From Phocaeicola coprocola DSM 17136 (lineage in GTDB: Bacteria; Bacteroidota; Bacteroidia; Bacteroidales; Bacteroidaceae): DNA of 64,000 bases. Position numbers and translations under genes: made by a program. The notes below the pieces were generated by a model that had not been told where the DNA came from, did not search any database, and was given only the letters and a program-made list of their open reading frames with translations. The stretch's first letter is position 1; each line of letters opens with the position of its first letter. Shown here piece after piece: positions 4,561 through 64,000 of the stretch. The stretch covers positions 1 through 64,000 of the forward strand of contig NZ_DS981507.1 of assembly GCF_000154845.1 (NCBI RefSeq). Direction: 5' to 3'.

Positions 4561-6756
4561 ATGATAGACCAAGCCACCATAGACCGTATCCTCGATGCTG
4601 CACAGATTGTAGACGTAGTATCCGAATTTGTTACTCTCCGACGCAGGGGGGTAAACTATATCGGACTGTGCCCTTTCCACAACGAAAAGACTCCATCTTT
4701 CAGTGTTTCTCCCAGTAAGGGACTCTGCAAATGCTTCAGCTGTGGGAAAGGAGGAAATGTTGTTCATTTCATTATGGAACACGAACAGCTTTCTTATTAC
4801 GAAGCACTGAAGTGGCTTGCCCGAAAATACAACATCGAAGTCAAGGAACGCGAACTGACTAATGAAGAAAAGCAGGCACAAAGCTTGCGCGAAAGTCTGT
4901 TTGTTGTCAACCAGTTTGCTTCGGAATATTTCCAGGATGTTCTTTATAATCACATCGACGGACAGCGTATCGGTATGACCTATTTGCGCGGACGCGGATT
5001 CCGTGACGATATTATCAAGAAGTTTCAGTTAGGATATAGTACCGACAGCCCCGATGCACTGGCAAAGGCTGCCATCCAGAAAGGATATAAGGAAGAATTT
5101 CTGGTAAAAACGGGACTCTGTTACCGTAAAGATAACGGTTCTTTGCACGACCGGTTCTGGGGACGTGTCATTTTTCCTGTTCATACCTTGTCGGGAAAAA
5201 TTGTAGCTTTCGGCGGACGTGTATTAAGCTCCGCCACCAAAAACGTACAGATGAAGTACGTCAATTCTCCCGAATCGGAAATCTATCACAAGAGCCGTGA
5301 GCTGTATGGTATTTACTTTGCCAAACAAGCTATTGTGCGGCAAGACCGCTGTTTTCTAGTAGAAGGATATACCGATGTGATTTCTATGCACCAAAGTGGT
5401 ATAGAAAACGTAGTAGCGTCATCGGGAACAGCATTAACCTCCGAGCAAATCCGGCTTATTCATCGTTTTACAAATAACATCACCGTACTTTACGACGGTG
5501 ACGGAGCGGGTATTAAGGCTAGTATCCGCGGTATCGACATGCTGTTGGAAGAAGGAATGAACATCAAGGTCTGCCTCCTGCCCGACGGTGATGATCCGGA
5601 TAGTTTTGCCCGCAAGCATAATGCCACCGACTATCAGGCATATATCAATGACCATGAAGTTGATTTTATCCGCTTTAAGACCAACCTCCTTATGGAAGAA
5701 GCGGGTAAAGATCCCATCAAGCGTGCTTCACTGATTTCCAGTATCGTAAAAAGTATTTCGGTTATTCCCGACGCCATTGTACGATCGGTGTACATTCGTG
5801 AGTGCAGTCAGTTACTGCAAATGGAAGAAAAGATACTGGTAGAAGCTACTGCCAAACTGATAGAGCAGGCCAGAGAAAATAAATTTAAGGAAGAACAACG
5901 CAGACAATACCGGGAACGTCAGTTGGCTGCCACTACTCCGAATACTGGTACACCGGCTTCTTCCACTCCTGCTGTTTCTGAAGGCAATGCAACAGCTGGT
6001 AATGATATACCATTCACAGCATCGAATGATATTCCACTCCCCCCTCCTCCCGTCGAAGATTCCGGAAATAATGGAATCATCCCCGATTTTCCTCCTGTTG
6101 AAACAGGAGAAGGGGCTGTCGTACCTACATCGCTGGGGAATGAAATTCCAGTTGATACATATACGTCATACATTCCGACAGAAGGCAATGAGCAGAAGGT
6201 GTTCTATGCCAAGGAGGAAGACTTAATGCGTATGATTGTACGGTACGGAGAGAAAGTAATGTGTTACATGGAAAATGAAAATGGAGAACAACTGCCTCTC
6301 ACCGTGACCGAATATATATCCGAAGGGCTGAAAGAAGATGAATTGCAATTTCATGTCGCACTTCACCGCCAAATGTTGAAAGAAGCGGAAATGCACATTC
6401 ATGACGAGAACTTTACCGCAGAACGTTACTTTATCGCACATCCGGTTCCAGAAATAAGTAAAGTAGCTGTCGATCTTGCCAGCGACCGCTATCAACTGAG
6501 CAAGTATCACTCAAAAGGACAAAAAATCATCAGCGATGAAGAGCGCTTGCATGAGCTGGTTCCACGTTTGCTGCTCGATTTTAAGCTATCCATTGTAGAC
6601 GAGGAAATGAAACATACGCTTCAAGCACTTGCCAATCCGGAAATAGCCAATGATCCGCAACGCTATATGGAAATCATGCAGCGTTATAAGGAGCTGCACG
6701 AAACACAAAGTATCATGGCTCAGCGTGCCGGCGACCGGGTGGTGCTGAAATTATAA
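4561..6756 (+). CDS. dnaG: DNA primase
   Basis: DnaG makes RNA primers for the replication fork and works with the replicative helicase. The 731-residue protein has the N-terminal CHC2 zinc finger (C37, H40, C58, C61). The central RNA-polymerase/Toprim core includes EGYTDV, YDGDGAG and DGDDPDSF. A low-complexity linker rich in Pro, Thr and Ser lies at about residues 455-545 and contains a run of six prolines. It precedes a C-terminal helical region that should bind DnaB. The protein is longer than E. coli DnaG (581 residues), mainly because of this linker. It stops 22 bases before a convergent gene. Confidence 0.95.
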   Translation: MIDQATIDRILDAAQIVDVVSEFVTLRRRGVNYIGLCPFHNEKTPSFSVSPSKGLCKCFSCGKGGNVVHFIMEHEQLSYYEALKWLARKYNIEVKERELTNEEKQAQSLRESLFVVNQFASEYFQDVLYNHIDGQRIGMTYLRGRGFRDDIIKKFQLGYSTDSPDALAKAAIQKGYKEEFLVKTGLCYRKDNGSLHDRFWGRVIFPVHTLSGKIVAFGGRVLSSATKNVQMKYVNSPESEIYHKSRELYGIYFAKQAIVRQDRCFLVEGYTDVISMHQSGIENVVASSGTALTSEQIRLIHRFTNNITVLYDGDGAGIKASIRGIDMLLEEGMNIKVCLLPDGDDPDSFARKHNATDYQAYINDHEVDFIRFKTNLLMEEAGKDPIKRASLISSIVKSISVIPDAIVRSVYIRECSQLLQMEEKILVEATAKLIEQARENKFKEEQRRQYRERQLAATTPNTGTPASSTPAVSEGNATAGNDIPFTASNDIPLPPPPVEDSGNNGIIPDFPPVETGEGAVVPTSLGNEIPVDTYTSYIPTEGNEQKVFYAKEEDLMRMIVRYGEKVMCYMENENGEQLPLTVTEYISEGLKEDELQFHVALHRQMLKEAEMHIHDENFTAERYFIAHPVPEISKVAVDLASDRYQLSKYHSKGQKIISDEERLHELVPRLLLDFKLSIVDEEMKHTLQALANPEIANDPQRYMEIMQRYKELHETQSIMAQRAGDRVVLKL

Positions 6757-52308: not shown

Positions 52309-53996
52309 ACTAAAGTTTCCCACCCCCAATAAAGAGGGTGGGAAGTAACAATAATTCAAATTTTCTTCGTAAATTAGAGGTGCTCAATCGACTGATTTAC
52401 AATGGAAAACAAGAATACTGTTATAGATGCAAAAATAGGTAATTTGAACGAACTTACCAAGGTTTTATCCGTTAAAGAACAAGCCCAAGAGCAACTTTTA
52501 GCCGTCATGAAGGCATTGGGAATCGGTAAAATCGTTCGGAATCTCAAATTCGAGAAGGCTCAAGGCTATACCTTGGCCTCCCTCTTCATCTCGCTCCTCA
52601 TCATGCGCCTGTGGGGAAAGACGATTGCAAGTGCCACTTCCAATCATTTTCATGGACTTTGCGCCGTGTCAAAGAACACGCTGTATCGCGCACTTTTGAA
52701 CGCCCGCATCGACTGGCGAATGCTTCTTACCAAAATTACCCTTCGCTTCCATGCCATTCTCCGGGAGCATCAGGTGGATACCGACGAGCATGACACTTGT
52801 GCCATCCTTGATGATACAACCTTTCAGAAGAGCGGCATTCGAATCGAAGGAGTCAGCAAGGTGTTCGACCATGTCACCCACAATTTCATTTATGGAATGA
52901 AATGCCTGACACCGGCTCTCTCTGACGGGAAAAGCTGCTATCCCATAGACTTCTCCCTTCATCGTGAAAAAGGAAAGAAGAAGGATTACGGCTTGACCTT
53001 AAAACAGCGGAAGGAGCAGTTCAAGGAAAAGCGGAACGCAAAAAATCCGGACTATGCACGCAAGGCGGAATGTGATGAGAGCAGGCTCGAAATGGTCAGA
53101 CGCATGCTCTGTCATGCCGTGGGGCATGGTATCAACTTCAAGTATGTGCTTGCTGACAGTTGGTTTACATGCGAATCGCTCATACAGGCAGTCCGCGAGC
53201 TATGCGGTGGTTCAGTGCACTATATTGGTTTGGCCAAGATGAACCCCAAGTTGCGTTATCAGACAAGCAAGTCCAAACGTCCCCAAAACATCCATGAACA
53301 GATTGTAAGGTATGAACGTACAACTTCATGCTATTGCCGAAAGTACAAGTGAAAATACATTCAGCTTCATGCAAAACCGGGCGAACAGCCCATACGCATC
53401 TTCATCATCAAATACGGGCGAAGCACCCATTGGAAAGTGTTGCTTACTACAGATACTTCCATGAACTTCGTCAGAGCCTTTGAACTTTACGAAAGACGCT
53501 GGGGCATAGAGGTCATATTCAAGGAATGCCGCGGTTATCTTGGACTGGGAAAATGTCAGAGTCGGAGCTACAACGCTCAGATTGCAGAAACCACCTTGTG
53601 TTTCATGATGTATCAGATGCTCTCCTTGGCCAAACGCTTTTCAGAATACGAAACCCTGGGAGCACTATTCCGCTCGGAGCGTGACCGGCTGCAAGTGCTC
53701 ACCCTGTGGAGCAGAACTTTGGAAGAAGTCAGGCATCTGTTGGAAGTTTTGTCGCGTGAAGCAGGAGTGGATCTGTTGACATGCCTATCAACTGTAGCCG
53801 CACGGCAAATGGCAGACTTCTCCACAAAGGTCTGGGCACATTTTCTGTGCGATTCGGACGATTATGCCATGCCCGATTTGGACTAAACATTTTTTAGGCG
53901 TGCGTTAAATCGTTCGGAAAACATTTGGTTTTTAGACCACCCACCGAAGGGAGCTATTACTCAAATAGCTGATATGAGGGGGTGGGAAACTTCAGT
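52309..53996 (+). mobile_element. Complete IS4-family insertion sequence, about 1.69 kb
   Basis: The ends are 19-base imperfect inverted repeats (52309-52327 and 53978-53996), which match at 18 of 19 positions and share GTTTCCCACCCCC. Inside lies one transposase frame with a stop. Next to the left end a stem CCCACCC/GGGTGGG and near the right end a stem AGCTATT/AATAGCT could block incoming transcripts. No target duplication is obvious. The element inserted between tsaB and yicC without breaking a gene that I can see. Confidence 0.88.
52402..53886 (+). pseudogene. IS4-family transposase interrupted by an in-frame TGA
   Basis: The frame runs 495 codons, including a TGA at 53350-53352. Before it lies CAILDDTTFQKSG with the first catalytic Asp and VLADSWFTCESL with the second. 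After it lies YERRWGIEVIFKEC, which matches Y-x2-R-x3-E-x6 and carries the catalytic Glu. Without read-through, the truncated 316-residue product lacks the Glu and cannot transpose. The reading frame is unchanged across the stop, so the cause is a single substitution, not a frameshift. A downstream ATG at 53461 or earlier in-frame codons might start a C-terminal fragment. Confidence 0.88.
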
Positions 53997-59037: not shown

Positions 59038-59204
59038 AGACATTCTTACAGTGTAATACTGAACACAATGTAGCTATCTAACAAGAACCATATTCTTCGC
59101 ATACGTGAAATGTGAGAATATGGTTCTAATTTTTGTATTAAAAAGCCACTTATTTTACTTCCAGCACTACTATAATCCGCAAATCCAAATTTCCGCAGAA
59201 TCCG

Positions 59205-59250
59205 AAACGAAGCGTTCGATTTTCAGGGAAAAGGACAAAACGAAGCGTTC
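59205..59250. repeat. Direct repeats near the prophage end
   Basis: Two copies of AAACGAAGCGTTC are spaced 33 bases start to start. Each contains the partial palindrome AACG-AAG-CGTT. They may be transposase-binding sites. Confidence 0.6.
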
Positions 59251-59370
59251 AAAAAAGGAAAGCGCGCAACACTCAAAAAGCCGAAACAAAAGTTTTGTAA
59301 TGACCTCTGTTTCGGCTTTATAATTTCATAAAAAATGGCTTTATAACGGCATTAAAATAAGGCTCAAAAG

Positions 59371-59402
59371 TTTGGCCTTCTACTTGAAAAATTGTATCTT
59401 TG
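59371..59402 (+). promoter_or_regulatory. Plus-strand promoter pointing into the 3' end of the methylase gene
   Basis: TTTGG at 59371-59375 and TATCTTTG at 59395-59402 form a good -33/-7 pair. Any transcript would run antisense to the methylase gene at 59410. Confidence 0.55.
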
Positions 59403-59409
59403 TTCAGTG

Positions 59410-60270
59410 CTAAGCAGCTGTTTTATGAACTAATTTTTCCTGTTTCTTATACAGCATCATGTCTGTATATTCGGCAGAATAATTCATGTGGGCATTGAAT
59501 TCCTTTTTTGTACAACCCTCAAAAGGATTGCCAATGGTTTTGTTTGCTCCAATCCATTCACACAGTTCAAGTATGGAGGATTTATTGGATGTGAAATAAA
59601 CGAAGGAATGCTTTTCGAGTATCTTTAAAACATCCAAATAATCAGACAAGCGCCAATACATATTGTACGTACCAACATCAGTGGAAAGATAAGGCGGATC
59701 AATTAAAAAGACGACTCCGGGAACATCCTTATATTGGTTGAATACTGCTTTGTAGTCGCATGATACAATTTCAAGCCCTTTTAAGTAGTCAGAAGACTCC
59801 GGATAACCGGTCTTGCGAATGTTGTTATAAAGGACTTCCTTGCGCATTTCGGCTACAGACAATTTATACTTCATGGAGAACATAAGTGAGGATGATAAGG
59901 TTATAAAATCCACGTACCCAACATTTAGTTCTTCTTCCTCGATACGTTTAAAAATGCGTTCTCTAAGTTCCCCTTTAATTGGTTTATGTTTGGGTATCGA
60001 ATTACCCACCAGCTCCCTAATATCGGCAAGCAGTTTATTTGTCTGTGGGATATTTTTCAGTCTGAACCGGTAGTTGTCGAAGTCATTGTAGACAACAGTA
60101 GCATCGGGCTTGCTTCTTTTGGCTATATGCGAAAGAAGTCCGGAACCGCCAAACAAGTCCACAAACACGGTATCTTCAGGGAACTGTTCCAAAACTTTAA
60201 TAAACTCTTTAGCAAACATTCTTTTTTGGCCTACAAATGGCAGTGGTGCAGATAAATTCATATTCTTCAT
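59410..60270 (-). CDS. D12-class DNA adenine methyltransferase
   Basis: The 286-residue enzyme should put a methyl on N6 of adenine in a short site, perhaps GATC, though the target is not readable. FVDLFGGSGLLSH (36-48) is the S-adenosylmethionine loop, and LIDPPYLST (189-197) has the DPPY catalytic motif. The order fits the Dam/D12 family. It overlaps the upstream TS-like gene by 4 bases and is the last gene before the phage border. Phages use such enzymes to escape restriction. Met4 is an alternative start. Confidence 0.88.
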   Translation of the reverse strand: MKNMNLSAPLPFVGQKRMFAKEFIKVLEQFPEDTVFVDLFGGSGLLSHIAKRSKPDATVVYNDFDNYRFRLKNIPQTNKLLADIRELVGNSIPKHKPIKGELRERIFKRIEEEELNVGYVDFITLSSSLMFSMKYKLSVAEMRKEVLYNNIRKTGYPESSDYLKGLEIVSCDYKAVFNQYKDVPGVVFLIDPPYLSTDVGTYNMYWRLSDYLDVLKILEKHSFVYFTSNKSSILELCEWIGANKTIGNPFEGCTKKEFNAHMNYSAEYTDMMLYKKQEKLVHKTAA

Positions 60271-60905
60271 ACGTTCAAGTCAAATTTAATGTTTTCAACT
60301 CCGGATAACAGTTCCAGAGTCCGGTCAATGTTATTTTCATATATATGCACATTTCCAAGGTCAAGGGTTATGGACTTCAGGGGAAGCTCCACCTGCCTTG
60401 CCATCAGATAAAGATGATAAATATCAGCCGGAAGCCCAAGGTTCGCATCAGAACTACGCTGATATGCAGATAGCACCAATTCTCCCTCATCAATTTGGAA
60501 CTGCACAAGACTCAGGCAGGGTGCCTGGTTGCTTTCCACCCCGGTTTCTCCAAGAAACAGGACATAATTCTTGCTGTTGCGCTTTTCCCGGTTAATCCTG
60601 GTTATGAGGGGGGGAAGCTTTTCAAAGTAAGTTGGATAGCTGTTTACAAGGGTATGGCCGCAATAATCCCACCAGGTAATCCCTGCCTCTTTGTATTTTT
60701 CCACATCCCGGACTCCTTGCATAAACAGTTTCAATTCCTCTTTCAGCTTTTTCCTGGCTATCCCGTGGCTTTCAAATATGTCAAGTAAATCAGCGGGGGT
60801 TAGCATGAGCCTTTCGTTTAATAGATACTTGATACGCCCTTTCCTATTGGTCTGGATTTTGCCCGTTTGGAGTATCTTGTCTAATGTCTGGTAATACTTA
60901 TTCAT
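60267..60905 (-). CDS. Thymidylate-synthase-superfamily enzyme with dCMP-type active site
   Basis: The 212-residue protein aligns with E. coli ThyA. APC (128-130) gives the catalytic Cys130. YQRSSDANLGLPADI (148-162) matches YQRSCDVFLGLPFNI of ThyA without gaps, keeping Arg150, Ser151 and Asp153. GNVHIYEN keeps His187 and Tyr189. The residue equal to ThyA Asn177 is Asp161. Asp there marks T4 dCMP hydroxymethylase. The paired Arg126-Arg127 that ThyA lends its partner subunit are Lys-Asn here. It may act on dCMP or be degenerate. The start at 60905 follows the promoter box at 60926. It overlaps the methylase by 4 bases. Confidence 0.75.
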   Translation of the reverse strand: MNKYYQTLDKILQTGKIQTNRKGRIKYLLNERLMLTPADLLDIFESHGIARKKLKEELKLFMQGVRDVEKYKEAGITWWDYCGHTLVNSYPTYFEKLPPLITRINREKRNSKNYVLFLGETGVESNQAPCLSLVQFQIDEGELVLSAYQRSSDANLGLPADIYHLYLMARQVELPLKSITLDLGNVHIYENNIDRTLELLSGVENIKFDLNV

Positions 60906-60925
60906 GAGCTTTATTTTTGGTTGTA

Positions 60926-60933
60926 CAAAGGTA
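60926..60933 (-). promoter_or_regulatory. Promoter -7 box for the TS-like/methylase pair
   Basis: The minus strand reads TACCTTTG, 21 bases upstream of the start at 60905. It supports that start over the longer open frame. Confidence 0.55.
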
Positions 60934-60971
60934 GCTCTACCGGACAACACAAGGCATCCCCGGCACATCAA

Positions 60972-61214
60972 TCACACTGCACCGAGCGTGCAGTGCTTTC
61001 CAAACCGTTTGATAACATCATACACCTTACGTTCGCTTACCGAATATTTATTTGCCAAAAACGCCACTGCATAAGTGGTCTTTTCACCTTGTTTTTTCAT
61101 GACCTCATACTCCGTATATAAGTCTATGAATCGAAGGTCATCCTGCTTGCCGCCCAAACTTATAAGCATTTCAAGCGGTTCTCTGTTAAATTTAAGTGCT
61201 TCAAACAATGTCAT
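60972..61214 (-). CDS. Small Mor/C-like helix-turn-helix protein
   Basis: The 80-residue protein has a C-terminal helix-turn-helix, YAVAFLANKYSVSERKVYDV, near residues 46-65. A helical N-terminus precedes it. The size, form and place beside DNA-modification genes recall the middle/late activators Mor and C of phage Mu, but similarity is only general. I use the ATG at 61214. The open frame extends two codons farther with TTG. It lies right after the inverted-repeat structure. Confidence 0.55.
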   Translation of the reverse strand: MTLFEALKFNREPLEMLISLGGKQDDLRFIDLYTEYEVMKKQGEKTTYAVAFLANKYSVSERKVYDVIKRFGKHCTLGAV

Positions 61215-61241
61215 ATCCAATCATTTTTGTACTTTTGCAAT

Positions 61242-61370
61242 GCCAATCATTTATTTAATGCGTAAAAACGCCACGAGAGTGCGGCAGAGGGCATTGCCCC
61301 CGGTCGCGCACTCTCGTGGCGTTTTGTGTTAATAAATGATTGGCGTCTATATTAACAGGCCGGGGGCTTT
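61242..61370. ncRNA. Large imperfect inverted repeat with cross-pairing flank, possible structured RNA
   Basis: A perfect 19-bp stem lies at 61265-61283 with 61307-61325. It is extended outward by CCAATCATTTATT (61243-61255) and AATAAATGATTGG (61331-61343), with a small bulge between. The 23-base loop contains GCCCCCGG (61296-61303), which can pair with CCGGGGGC (61360-61367), followed by TTTTTT. A plus-strand TACTTTTG (61230-61237) is a possible promoter. The minus strand after the stem has TTTTT, so it could also be a terminator for the upstream phage genes. Confidence 0.5.
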
Positions 61371-61398
61371 TTTATCCCTCCCCCGAAGGGATTGTCAA

Positions 61399-61884
61399 TC
61401 ACTCAATCCGATATAATTCCAAATTGAACTTGTCCTTTTTTTCCCAGCCTTCAGCCAGAACTGTCTGAATGAATCCTACTGCTTTTGTATAGAAATCTTT
61501 CAGTTCTTCTAACTGAGTAAAAGTATGGTATTCCGGTTGTTCATCCGAACCAAACTTAAACGTCACTGGCAGGGTTTCTCCGCCCGTCTGAACGGCCAAA
61601 TCGTATGCTGCCTTATAGTTGTACTGGTTCTCCACAGAAAGCCATACATGGGCACCATTATAGGCGAATCCGGATAGGATAGCCGCATCAGTCTGGCTGT
61701 TATACCAGGACATAACCAATGTGTGGATTTCCTCATCAGTAGGCTTATGCCCGAACTCCTCTTCCATGTAGGAGGCAGAGCCGTTCTCTTTTTCCTGCAC
61801 ATCCCATCGGATGCGCCATTTGTCTTTAACCGGGTTCGTGCATTCCATCAGCGAAACCCCGGAACTTCCTTCAACTCTTCTCAT
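61399..61884 (-). CDS. Phage tail-assembly-like protein (DUF4376-like)
   Basis: The 161-residue protein has no signal peptide and resembles small tail fibre assembly proteins. Residues 50-75 (HTLVMSWYNSQTDAAILSGF) and 110-145 have the pattern of DUF4376-type phage proteins. A tail role fits its place after the DGR, since DGR targets in phages are often receptor-binding tips. It overlaps the RT gene by 4 bases (ATGA), so it is co-translated with it. The assignment is tentative. Confidence 0.5.
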   Translation of the reverse strand: MRRVEGSSGVSLMECTNPVKDKWRIRWDVQEKENGSASYMEEEFGHKPTDEEIHTLVMSWYNSQTDAAILSGFAYNGAHVWLSVENQYNYKAAYDLAVQTGGETLPVTFKFGSDEQPEYHTFTQLEELKDFYTKAVGFIQTVLAEGWEKKDKFNLELYRIE

Positions 61885-63182
61885 GTAAACACGTATTTGG
61901 TTCTACCTTTGCCGAATGTCTCTGTCTTGATGGTCGTTTCAAACGGGAAACCATCCGGCATTTCCTTTACTTGTGCGAGAATATTCTTCATTTCCTCGCT
62001 GTTGGTGAAGAACTTCTTTGCCTCGCCGTTCACTTCGATGGCCACAATACAGCGGTCTTCTCCCTGCTCGGTTTTGATACCGGTCTCAAAGTCCTTCACT
62101 ACAATGGGTAAGTTTACCAGTTCCCGGATGCTTACCACCACTCCGGGGAATCGCTTTTTACCGTCTTCCGGCTTGTAAGCGACATTCAAGTCTTTAAAAC
62201 TTCTCATTTCTTTGCCTGTTAATTTTTTAAACAACTTATTACAGTCGGCGTGCTTCGTCATGCCGTAGAAACTGGCAATCAGTTCCCGCCGTCTTTTTCT
62301 CGATTTTACCTCGTGCATTTTCCGGGCAAACTTCTGTTTGATGCGTTTCCGCAATCTTACATAGTCGGGACGGATAACATAGCCAAGGAAATCAATGCCT
62401 TCTTCCACAGGGAACACCCGTTCATTCGGCTTTATTTCCAAGTCTATTTTTCCCATTTGCCCGTGAACAGCATCACGAATCTTCCACAATTCCGCTTTCG
62501 TTTTACCGAGTACCAGTCCGTCATCGCAATAGCGATAGTAATAACGAACCCCGTACTTATCCTTCAGATAGTGGTCTAAAAATACAGACAGAAGCAGATT
62601 TCCTGCCCCTTGTGAACTGCGCAGTCCGAAACTGATACCTTCCGGCAGCAGCTTAACAAACCGCTCCAACAAGACCAACAGCCTTTTGTCCTTGAACACC
62701 CTCCGGAAGCACCACATAACAAAGTCCTGCCGCGCATTGTCATAAAACCTCCGGATGTCAAATTTGTATGCGTAAAGCGTGCCTTCCGGATTTTTTTGCA
62801 AATCGGTACGTATGCAGTTCATCAGGTCATGAGTACCGCGCCTTTTGATGCTTGCACCGGTTGTCCGGATATAACGTTTTTGCAGGTGGCGGTCCACCAC
62901 ATTCATGATGGCAAACACAGCGATGCGGTCTTTCATGGACAGGATCTGCAAAATACGTTTTTTACCGTATTCTTCAATTTCCCTCTCATGGTAGCCGCCC
63001 AGCCGGAATGAGCCGTCCGCAATGGAAGCCGTCAGTTCGGTGATAATCTTCTCCCTATGGGCAAGCAGGAATCGTCCCTGCCTTGACCTCTTACGATCGG
63101 TTCCGCGAAGTACCGAATCGAATGCCTCCGACATATTGGAGTATTCGATGATTTCCTCGATAATATATCCTTCCCTGCGCAT
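61881..63182 (-). CDS. Diversity-generating retroelement reverse transcriptase
   Basis: The enzyme copies the template-repeat RNA with errors at adenines and feeds the cDNA into the target gene. The 433-residue protein shows RRGTHDL near residue 115 and motif A KFDIRRFYDN (140-149). GLRSSQGAGN (186-195) takes the place of the usual S-Q motif, YRYCDD (216-221) is the catalytic box, and DFLGY (264-268) follows. A C-terminal region of about 90 residues (345-433) goes beyond the usual thumb. It is beta-rich and may be an OB-like nucleic-acid-binding domain. The template repeat lies about 200 bases upstream, and the target gene precedes it. Confidence 0.85.
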   Translation of the reverse strand: MRREGYIIEEIIEYSNMSEAFDSVLRGTDRKRSRQGRFLLAHREKIITELTASIADGSFRLGGYHEREIEEYGKKRILQILSMKDRIAVFAIMNVVDRHLQKRYIRTTGASIKRRGTHDLMNCIRTDLQKNPEGTLYAYKFDIRRFYDNARQDFVMWCFRRVFKDKRLLVLLERFVKLLPEGISFGLRSSQGAGNLLLSVFLDHYLKDKYGVRYYYRYCDDGLVLGKTKAELWKIRDAVHGQMGKIDLEIKPNERVFPVEEGIDFLGYVIRPDYVRLRKRIKQKFARKMHEVKSRKRRRELIASFYGMTKHADCNKLFKKLTGKEMRSFKDLNVAYKPEDGKKRFPGVVVSIRELVNLPIVVKDFETGIKTEQGEDRCIVAIEVNGEAKKFFTNSEEMKNILAQVKEMPDGFPFETTIKTETFGKGRTKYVFT

Positions 63183-63343
63183 AAGCTATTGGTTAATAAA
63201 CATGGAAGATGAGGGCCTTCCTTTCCCCGGGTCTGACTTCTTCGAACTGATAACAGCCTACCAAACTCCACCCGACGCGTGATTTTTCAGCTTTCCACCT
63301 TTTCTGGTGCTGTTGCTGTGGCTTGCTCCCCTCGGCACCGCTT

Positions 63344-63357
63344 CGGGGACACGTCCC
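63344..63357 (-). other. GC hairpin just downstream of the template repeat
   Basis: GGGGAC and GTCCCC form a tight hairpin in the RNA between the template repeat and the RT gene. DGR template RNAs often need structured 3' flanks, so it may be part of the functional RNA. Confidence 0.5.
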
Positions 63358-63386
63358 CGCTGCTGTACGCCGATTTGTTAGATTTC

Positions 63387-63500
63387 CAGACGCGAGCCGA
63401 CATTCGCACCCGTACTCGAAGCATCGTTATTCGCATTCGCATTCGACACACCGCCATTCGCATTCGCATTGTTGTACCCGCGATAGACCACACGGACTAT
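63387..63500 (-). repeat. DGR template repeat (TR), left limit firm, right limit uncertain
   Basis: Read on the minus strand, the core 63476-63387 is rich in AAC/AAT. In the frame of the target gene it would encode 30 residues, YNNANANGGVSNANANNDAS and then STGANVGSRL, with nine Asn. Asn codons with two adenines are the hallmark of DGR templates. CCAGACGCGAGC at 63386-63397 recurs at the window edge (63989-64000), inside the target gene. The repeat must extend right to somewhere before 63557. The end cannot be fixed without the variable repeat. Confidence 0.8.
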
Positions 63501-63557
63501 TGGGGAACTCTACCGCTTGCAAAGTTACTGATTTAACAGGCAAAACAGATAAACGAA

Positions 63558-63791
63558 TTACACTATCATCCAAAATAAAACGGATATACTGCCACCCGCG
63601 ACGGTGAGCCCCCAATCAATCCAGTCCCAAGGACTTCCCCGAAGAGTATCTTTCAGTTCCAGACAGGAAGCTGCAATGGCCGCAGCATAAAAGGCCGTCC
63701 AAGGAGTAAATCCCAATAGACCTACCATCAAACCACCGATAAGATGCTTGTAACGGTTACTCATTTTTAAAAATGCGATAATCTTTTTCAT
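63558..63791 (-). CDS. Small membrane protein between DGR target and template repeat
   Basis: The 77-residue protein has a basic N-terminus and two or three hydrophobic segments (about 15-35, 38-48 and 60-77). HLIGGLMVGLLGFTPWTAFY is the first. Similar small proteins occur in Bacteroides phages and plasmids and could be holin-like. It takes the place where Avd would be expected in a DGR but does not look like Avd, which is a helical soluble protein. I use the ATG at 63791. A TTG start lies three codons upstream. Confidence 0.6.
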   Translation of the reverse strand: MKKIIAFLKMSNRYKHLIGGLMVGLLGFTPWTAFYAAAIAASCLELKDTLRGSPWDWIDWGLTVAGGSISVLFWMIV

Positions 63792-63816
63792 ATACCTCAA
63801 AATTCTATTTTTTCGA

Positions 63817-63829
63817 CCGGCTTCGCCGG
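63817..63829. repeat. Short hairpin downstream of the DGR target gene
   Basis: CCGGC-TTC-GCCGG is a 5-bp GC stem. A second one, GCGC-TTT-GCGC, lies at 63910-63920 right after the target stop. DGRs often have a hairpin or cruciform just past the variable repeat, and these are candidates. Confidence 0.4.
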
Positions 63830-63920
63830 CATTTGAATACCTTTTAAATGGAATTCGGAAACCATCCGAATCCCGTTCTTTCGTTTTAGTCGCTTCGCTC
63901 CACGCTTTGGCGCTTTGCGC

Positions 63921-64000
63921 TTACGCCACCTCGCGTATCGCCTTGTACGCTGCCACGCTTTGCGCCCGGACGATTTTGCCGCGGAAGGCCAGACGCGAGC
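63921..64000 (-). CDS. 3' end of a DGR target gene, cut by the window edge
   Basis: Only the last 25 codons are visible. They end SRLAFRGKIVRAQSVAAYKA and then IREVA with TAA at 63921-63923. The first visible bases match the end of the template repeat (GCTCGCGTCTGG in coding direction), so the variable repeat begins at the window edge and continues to the right. SRLAFRG after the variable stretch fits the C-terminus of the C-type-lectin-like targets of Bacteroides DGRs. The protein is probably a phage tail tip that binds the host surface. Confidence 0.75.
   Translation of the reverse strand, partial: SRLAFRGKIVRAQSVAAYKAIREVA

Follow-up and report, generated by a model that had tools for sequence, protein, structure and literature searches.

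The diversity-generating retroelement (DGR) of Bordetella phage BPP-1 combines a reverse transcriptase (RT), a template repeat (TR) and a variable repeat (VR), the last in the 3'-terminal part of a tail-fibre gene, with adenine mutagenesis (PMC3240598). In hankyphage p00 the VR encodes the C-terminal end of a very large protein and is changed only at adenines, in Asn codons (Benler et al. 2018, PMC6199706). The group to which p00 belongs is described as having diversified its VR in culture (PMC12135933), and a study of the putative genus Hankyvirus describes induced hankyphage-like phages with DGRs, in which remote VRs were sought and some phages were found to carry a second VR away from the cassette (PMC12629997). 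The window analysed here, a stretch of 64,000 nucleotides from Phocaeicola coprocola DSM 17136, comprises bases 1-64000 of the 109,182-bp contig NZ_DS981507.1 (coordinates above 64000 refer to the same contig beyond the window), and its right end falls within what is almost certainly a complete DGR of a hankyphage-type prophage (Table 1). Hankyphage DGRs having already been published, this cassette, in a divergent hankyphage-type prophage, is of a known kind.

The gene order target, VR, small open reading frame (ORF), TR, RT, DUF4376, Mor region, thymidylate synthase and D12 methyltransferase is the same as in p00 (record BK010646) and its relatives. The RTs of this prophage and p00 are 75.8% identical in amino acid sequence, while the target genes could be aligned along 30% of the query, at 73% DNA identity. 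Unlike p00, the locus has an 80-aa ORF between VR and TR without a relative at that place in p00, and its template lacks three adenines. The first-pass annotation had likened the layout to both BPP-1 and Bacteroides prophages; the resemblance to the latter is close, whereas BPP-1 is distant in its RT and differs in that no Avd-family match is found nearby and no hairpin directly follows the VR here.

Table 1. Features of the DGR and of the prophage that carries it
Feature	Coordinates	Strand	Remarks
Template repeat (TR), noncoding	63386-63498, 113 bp	-	Adenine-rich
Variable repeat (VR)	63989-64101, 113 bp	-	63989-64000, the 3' end, within the window; rest past the edge
Tail-protein gene, 2183 aa (target)	63921-70472 (63921-64000 in window)	-	VR in last 52 codons
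DGR reverse transcriptase (RT), 433 aa, YRYCDD motif	61881-63182	-	Pfam RVT_1 E 3.1e-11; phrog_1423 E 1.2e-103
Structured RNA, Rfam RF03068 RT-3 RNA	63228-63375	-	Between TR and RT; full-length match, 150.3 bits (gathering 40.5)
DUF4376 protein, 161 aa	61399-61884	-	Start overlaps RT stop by 4 bases
Hydrophobic ORF, 80 aa	63558-63800	-	Between VR and TR; phrog_38535, unknown function
Imperfect inverted repeat, 13-nt arms, 85%	63847-63877	-	44-74 nt past target gene, 112 bp beyond VR; possible terminator
Hankyphage-like prophage, 42.8 kb	59171-101962		Window holds right part, 59171-64000
End of prophage right part: Mor-like, thymidylate synthase and D12 methyltransferase genes	within 59171-64000		
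Remote-target loci in relatives: L013, L014, L016, L017, L031, L038, L050, L075, L110, L137	TR near locus centre		

The adenine-rich noncoding repeat that had been placed at 63387-63557 is present, though shorter than claimed. A DNA search using the cassette stretch located the second copy of the repeat just beyond the window edge, so that the 12-base match noted there in the first-pass annotation is real and the VR does, as had been supposed, extend past the edge. When the sequence was extended rightward and the VR was aligned to the TR, as that annotation had proposed, seven mismatches were found in the aligned 113-bp repeats, all seven at template adenines; in a frame shifted by one base, all eight mismatches fall on A (24 A per 113; chance 1.4e-6). 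Each of the seven falls on the first or second base of a codon; in the template, six of the codons concerned encode Asn and one encodes Tyr, and the template contains nine Asn codons in all. The VR is carried by a coding gene, at its 3' end, and the silent reading frame of the noncoding TR translates as RVVYRGYNNANANGGVSNANANNDASSTGANVGSR, in agreement with the Asn-rich stretch noted earlier. At the shared end of the repeats there is a probable IMH/IMH*-type (initiation of mutagenic homing) difference: past CTGG, the VR reads CCTTCCGCGG and the TR reads AAATCTAAC.

A prophage of Phocaeicola plebeius (L008) differs from this one by 369 mismatches across 41.8 kb aligned, clustered at 68-75 kb, but in the comparison of 59171-65429 there are only 7 substitutions, all of them in the VR at template adenines, and one 1-base indel near 61367. 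Because substitutions over ~6 kb are found only at VR adenines, with a single indel besides, recent activity of the retroelement is well supported by these alignments. The two near-identical prophages in two host genomes constitute a natural experiment, their substitutions over ~6 kb being at DGR-targeted adenines only. Most of the other differences lie in 68000-75999, which looks like a recombined tail-gene segment.

Among relatives, 125 loci have a recognisable TR (four loci yielded none), and for 55 of these a same-strand VR-like repeat was found (at most 25 mismatches at sites other than template adenines, here called non-A mismatches), 40 of the 55 with zero non-A mismatches. In 42 distinct TR/VR pairs, from which duplicates and pairs with more than 8 non-A mismatches were left out, 413 of 1078 A sites are changed, versus 12 of 3458 other sites; the VR base at template adenines is A in 665 cases, T in 200, G in 167 and C in 46.

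The anatomy, the adenine-only change and the confinement of substitutions to the VR over ~6 kb between two near-identical prophages are direct observations, and on these it is very nearly certain that RT, TR and VR constitute one complete DGR of a hankyphage-type prophage. By analogy with BPP-1 and hankyphage work on transcription, cDNA synthesis, homing and receptor binding, the TR would be transcribed jointly with the RT-3 RNA that follows it, the RT would make from the template RNA a cDNA mutated at adenines, and this cDNA would take the place of the VR that encodes the C-terminus of the 2183-aa tail protein; randomisation of mainly the first two bases of Asn codons would then alter a presumed receptor-binding tip. 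Several results weigh against this assignment. Profile searches with Pfam and NCBIfam detected no member of the BPP-1 Avd families in the neighbourhood of the cassette; the NCBIfam family DivGenRetAVD has no match in the P. coprocola genome, where Pfam bAvd has one weak match (E 0.36) on a different contig. BPP-1-type Avd is common among DGRs, but not universal. No hairpin or cruciform was found directly after the VR, the closest looped inverted repeat being 112 bp beyond it, although the corresponding BPP-1 hairpin is described as helpful rather than strictly needed (PMC12875486). The model of the target tip, made for the P. plebeius homologue, is poor (mean pLDDT 44), so that a C-type lectin fold is not visible from it, and no useful Pfam or PDB match was found for the tip.

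The template itself differs from its sister templates in that A is replaced by G at 63415, 63410 and 63409. A is present at all three sites in L005, L006, L007, L009, L062, L063 and both copies in genome G320, whereas G is shared by this prophage and that of P. plebeius (L008). The RT gene and spacer are identical base for base to those of L005 and L009, and outside the VR L009 differs at only four sites over ~2.6 kb, three of which are template adenines that lie in a 7-bp stretch. Two template Asn codons have thereby become Ser and Gly, and two residues are therefore fixed. The change could have arisen by homing of a mutated cDNA into the TR, by conversion of the TR by a VR, or by point mutation; no donor was identified among the VRs compared. 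If it is true that the template is editable, a DGR can lock a useful residue. In another pair of relatives (L108 and L037), the 421 bases of spacer and RT start contain 10 mismatches and 1 gap, yet the templates are unlike at 33 of 108 positions, as if the template had been swapped as a block.

Every VR in the relatives was also compared with all templates in the set, one comparison comprising 69 unique templates. A VR with at least two non-A mismatches to its own template was counted as discordant; indel-shifted VRs (L065, L066, L078) and those with exactly one non-A mismatch (L012, L039, L077, L024, L089 and the distal VR of L110) were left out of the count. There are 10 discordant VRs, of which 7 fit the template of another prophage with 0 non-A mismatches, and the fitting template is located in the same genome (L006, L016, L010, L030) or on the same contig (L135) in all five testable cases, L104 and L105 being fragments. 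In Mediterranea massiliensis, the VR of L006 (5085-5192) has 6 non-A mismatches to its own TR and 0 to that of L016, and the remote VR of L016 (L285) has 4 to its own TR and 0 to that of L006. The VR of L010 in P. plebeius (5250-5335) has 5 to its own TR and, over the 86 of its 108 bases that can be read, 0 to that of L008; it contains the edited AGTACGG. In Parabacteroides, the VRs of L030, L104 and L135 have 13 to their own TR and 0 to the L054-type template, and the VR of L105 has 2 to its own TR and 0 to the p00-type template. Some VRs are fitted by more than one template (three for L010, two for L016), and no fitting template was found in the set for the distal VR of L050 (12 non-A mismatches), L141 (12) and the distal VR of L137 (2). 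In B. finegoldii, which has two cassettes, the VRs of L005 and L021 are concordant, each matching its own template.

These alignments suggest templating between co-resident prophages. The clear two-prophage cases are those of M. massiliensis and P. plebeius, because L135, in which 25.8 kb separate the template from a VR on the other strand, is perhaps one prophage with two cassettes, and L030 has its other cassette on the same contig, ~130 kb off. The IMG/VR contig of L132 and L135 (57,927 bp) contains two RT-TR cassettes and one VR that could be found, which fits the farther template. The evidence is evenly poised on the proposal that a prophage's DGR acts in trans, through its RT and template RNA, to rewrite the tail gene of a co-resident prophage, sharing or imposing tip repertoires, and that the template too changes at adenines, fixing residues; the edited P. 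plebeius template apparently wrote the VR of the second prophage. If this is true, DGR repertoires are common to the prophages of one cell, and a phage can gain tail variants beyond those of its own template. No description of templating across prophages was recognised in the accessible text of the open-licence literature on hankyphage DGRs, template editing, gene conversion and directionality, in-trans action, co-resident prophages and DUF4376 with RT.

That the element might be a fossil DGR, with old TR/VR differences and a cassette that no longer functions, is very improbable. Three template adenines are gone, and cassettes do decay in relatives, where the target gene of L023, L045 and L052 runs into the 3' flank of the TR and the VR of L067 occupies the expected place of the TR; against this, the RT frame is intact and is listed as 100% identical in five other hosts, and substitutions over the ~6 kb compared with the P. 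plebeius prophage are in the VR only. The arrangements upstream of RT in L023, L045, L052 and L067 look like collapse of the VR onto the TR. That the three A-to-G template changes are ordinary point mutations, in which the DGR was not involved, is about as likely as not: all three are transitions, perhaps from one event, and among the 11 close pairs listed the other template changes are not only at A (89C>T, 87/88, 33/94, 105), but the occurrence of three of the four changes relative to L009 within 7 bp on template adenines has a probability of 3.4e-6 if the changes were independent.

Repeat-limited recombination is the main rival to cross-templating. Homologous recombination of pieces of target genes between co-resident prophages, with adenine changes that predate the exchange, is a possible but rather unlikely origin of the discordant VRs. 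The relatedness of the target genes speaks for it, as does the reciprocity of the M. massiliensis case, which a swap would produce. The first 16 bases past the core are also the same in both genes, so that the downstream edge is not sharp. However, in M. massiliensis the core alone has switched. Gene A, the one of the two that could be compared with close relatives, keeps the flanks of its lineage and equals L005 and L007 over 600 bp on the upstream side and 250 bp on the downstream side, although genes A and B are unlike at -1, -2 and -3 and show 40 differing sites in the adjoining 124 bp upstream. The flank differences of L010 in P. plebeius likewise start at -1, its downstream edge being masked by N, and L030, L135 and L104 are identical outside the VR from -300 to up to +700 and differ only in the VR, each fitting the other template. 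Errors of assembly in genomes with several similar repeats would be an improbable source of the discordant VRs. A run of N starts inside the L010 VR and both VRs of G320 miss bases, but 18 of 108 sites distinguish the two M. massiliensis VRs, which adjoin distinct upstream flanks, and therefore ordinary reads should separate them; the Parabacteroides pattern, moreover, is repeated in three records. In the two G320 copies (L274, L275) the missing bases lie around mutable adenines, which perhaps reflects a mixed-population consensus.

The minus-strand reverse transcriptase with YCDD reported in the first-pass annotation was recovered as a gene with the extended YRYCDD motif and a Pfam RVT_1 domain. 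Its best solved relative is PDB chain 8ub7_A, 'Reverse transcriptase' (E 6.6e-18), which we take to be the BPP-1 DGR enzyme, and a scan against NCBIfam gave just sub-cutoff matches, to other RT classes. The RT-3 RNA between TR and RT was found in 9 of 10 related loci scanned, L053 being the exception; the fold of the spacer from the single sequence is unremarkable (z -1.43). In BPP-1, a spacer in the equivalent position is described as recruiting the RT and priming cDNA synthesis (PMC12875486), and RT-3 RNA may be the positional counterpart of that spacer. The passage on RT-3 RNA in an earlier report treats its structure, without mention of DGRs (PMC7657543). RF03068 marks a structured portion of the template RNA in this DGR family and might help to find such cassettes.

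The DUF4376 gene goes with the RT, because a relative of it is found downstream of RT in 37 of the 38 loci that have a VR close by and in all 46 that do not (some of the latter not traced to their VR), and because 24 of 25 DUF4376 records of annotated phages fall among the 60 RT matches listed, the 25th being a fragment that starts 138 bases before the gene. One hankyphage record labels this protein Avd. Avd is a helical bundle; the predicted model of the DUF4376 protein is confident and has strands as well as helices, with middling PDB matches. DUF4376 proteins of Alteromonas phages V22 and A5 are described as tail-fibre chaperones (PMC10579305), and the domain is shared, but here the gene follows the RT even where the VR is not nearby. 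The DUF4376 protein could thus be either a candidate chaperone for the hypervariable tip or a candidate RT partner, both being possible. Relatives of the 80-aa ORF are present in 44 of 124 related loci, and in all 44 they end 58-100 nt before the TR.

In a sister group of relatives that lack a nearby VR, ten genomes or records place the VR on the strand opposite to the TR, at a distance of 25.3-26.6 kb. Eleven remote VRs were compared with their templates, and 7 of them are free of non-A mismatches; in six remote loci with upstream genes listed (L013, L016, L014, L027, L031, L038) genes that look like terminase, portal and MuF genes, named by likeness and not by profile, precede the cassette. 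Remote DGR targets are already known (PMC8144416, PMC12629997), but neither a cassette 26 kb from a single target nor templating between prophages appears in the accessible text of the Hankyvirus study (PMC12629997).

The location of the cassette in a prophage, asserted from the outset, is borne out by a 42.8-kb element with a Mu-type portal, the p00 gene order, variable host flanks and short end repeats. Alignments with the five RT-sharing relatives (L005-L009) and with virus contigs L064 and L065 stop at 59171 +/-1 base; the other boundary, 101962, was taken from alignment with the P. plebeius prophage. The host sequence at the right end of the element differs in every relative examined, and 4-bp direct repeats were found at the element ends in the three cases checked (GTAG, CACC, TAAG), versus 5 bp reported for hankyphage (PMC6199706). 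The prophage also encodes a MuF-like protein, a Clp-type protease and AAA ATPases, and a transposase candidate with 30% identity to the transposase of phage BX-TP2 across its N-terminal third and no Pfam match; the target protein is 42% identical to a large protein at the same place in BX-TP2. The MuF-like head protein (89092-90597) has a C-terminal papain-fold glutamine-deamidase-type toxin domain (Pfam Gln_amidase E 1.8e-21). Elsewhere in the window, at 52402-53886, there are two consecutive ORFs of 316 and 149 aa, which give us the impression of a single interrupted insertion-sequence transposase.

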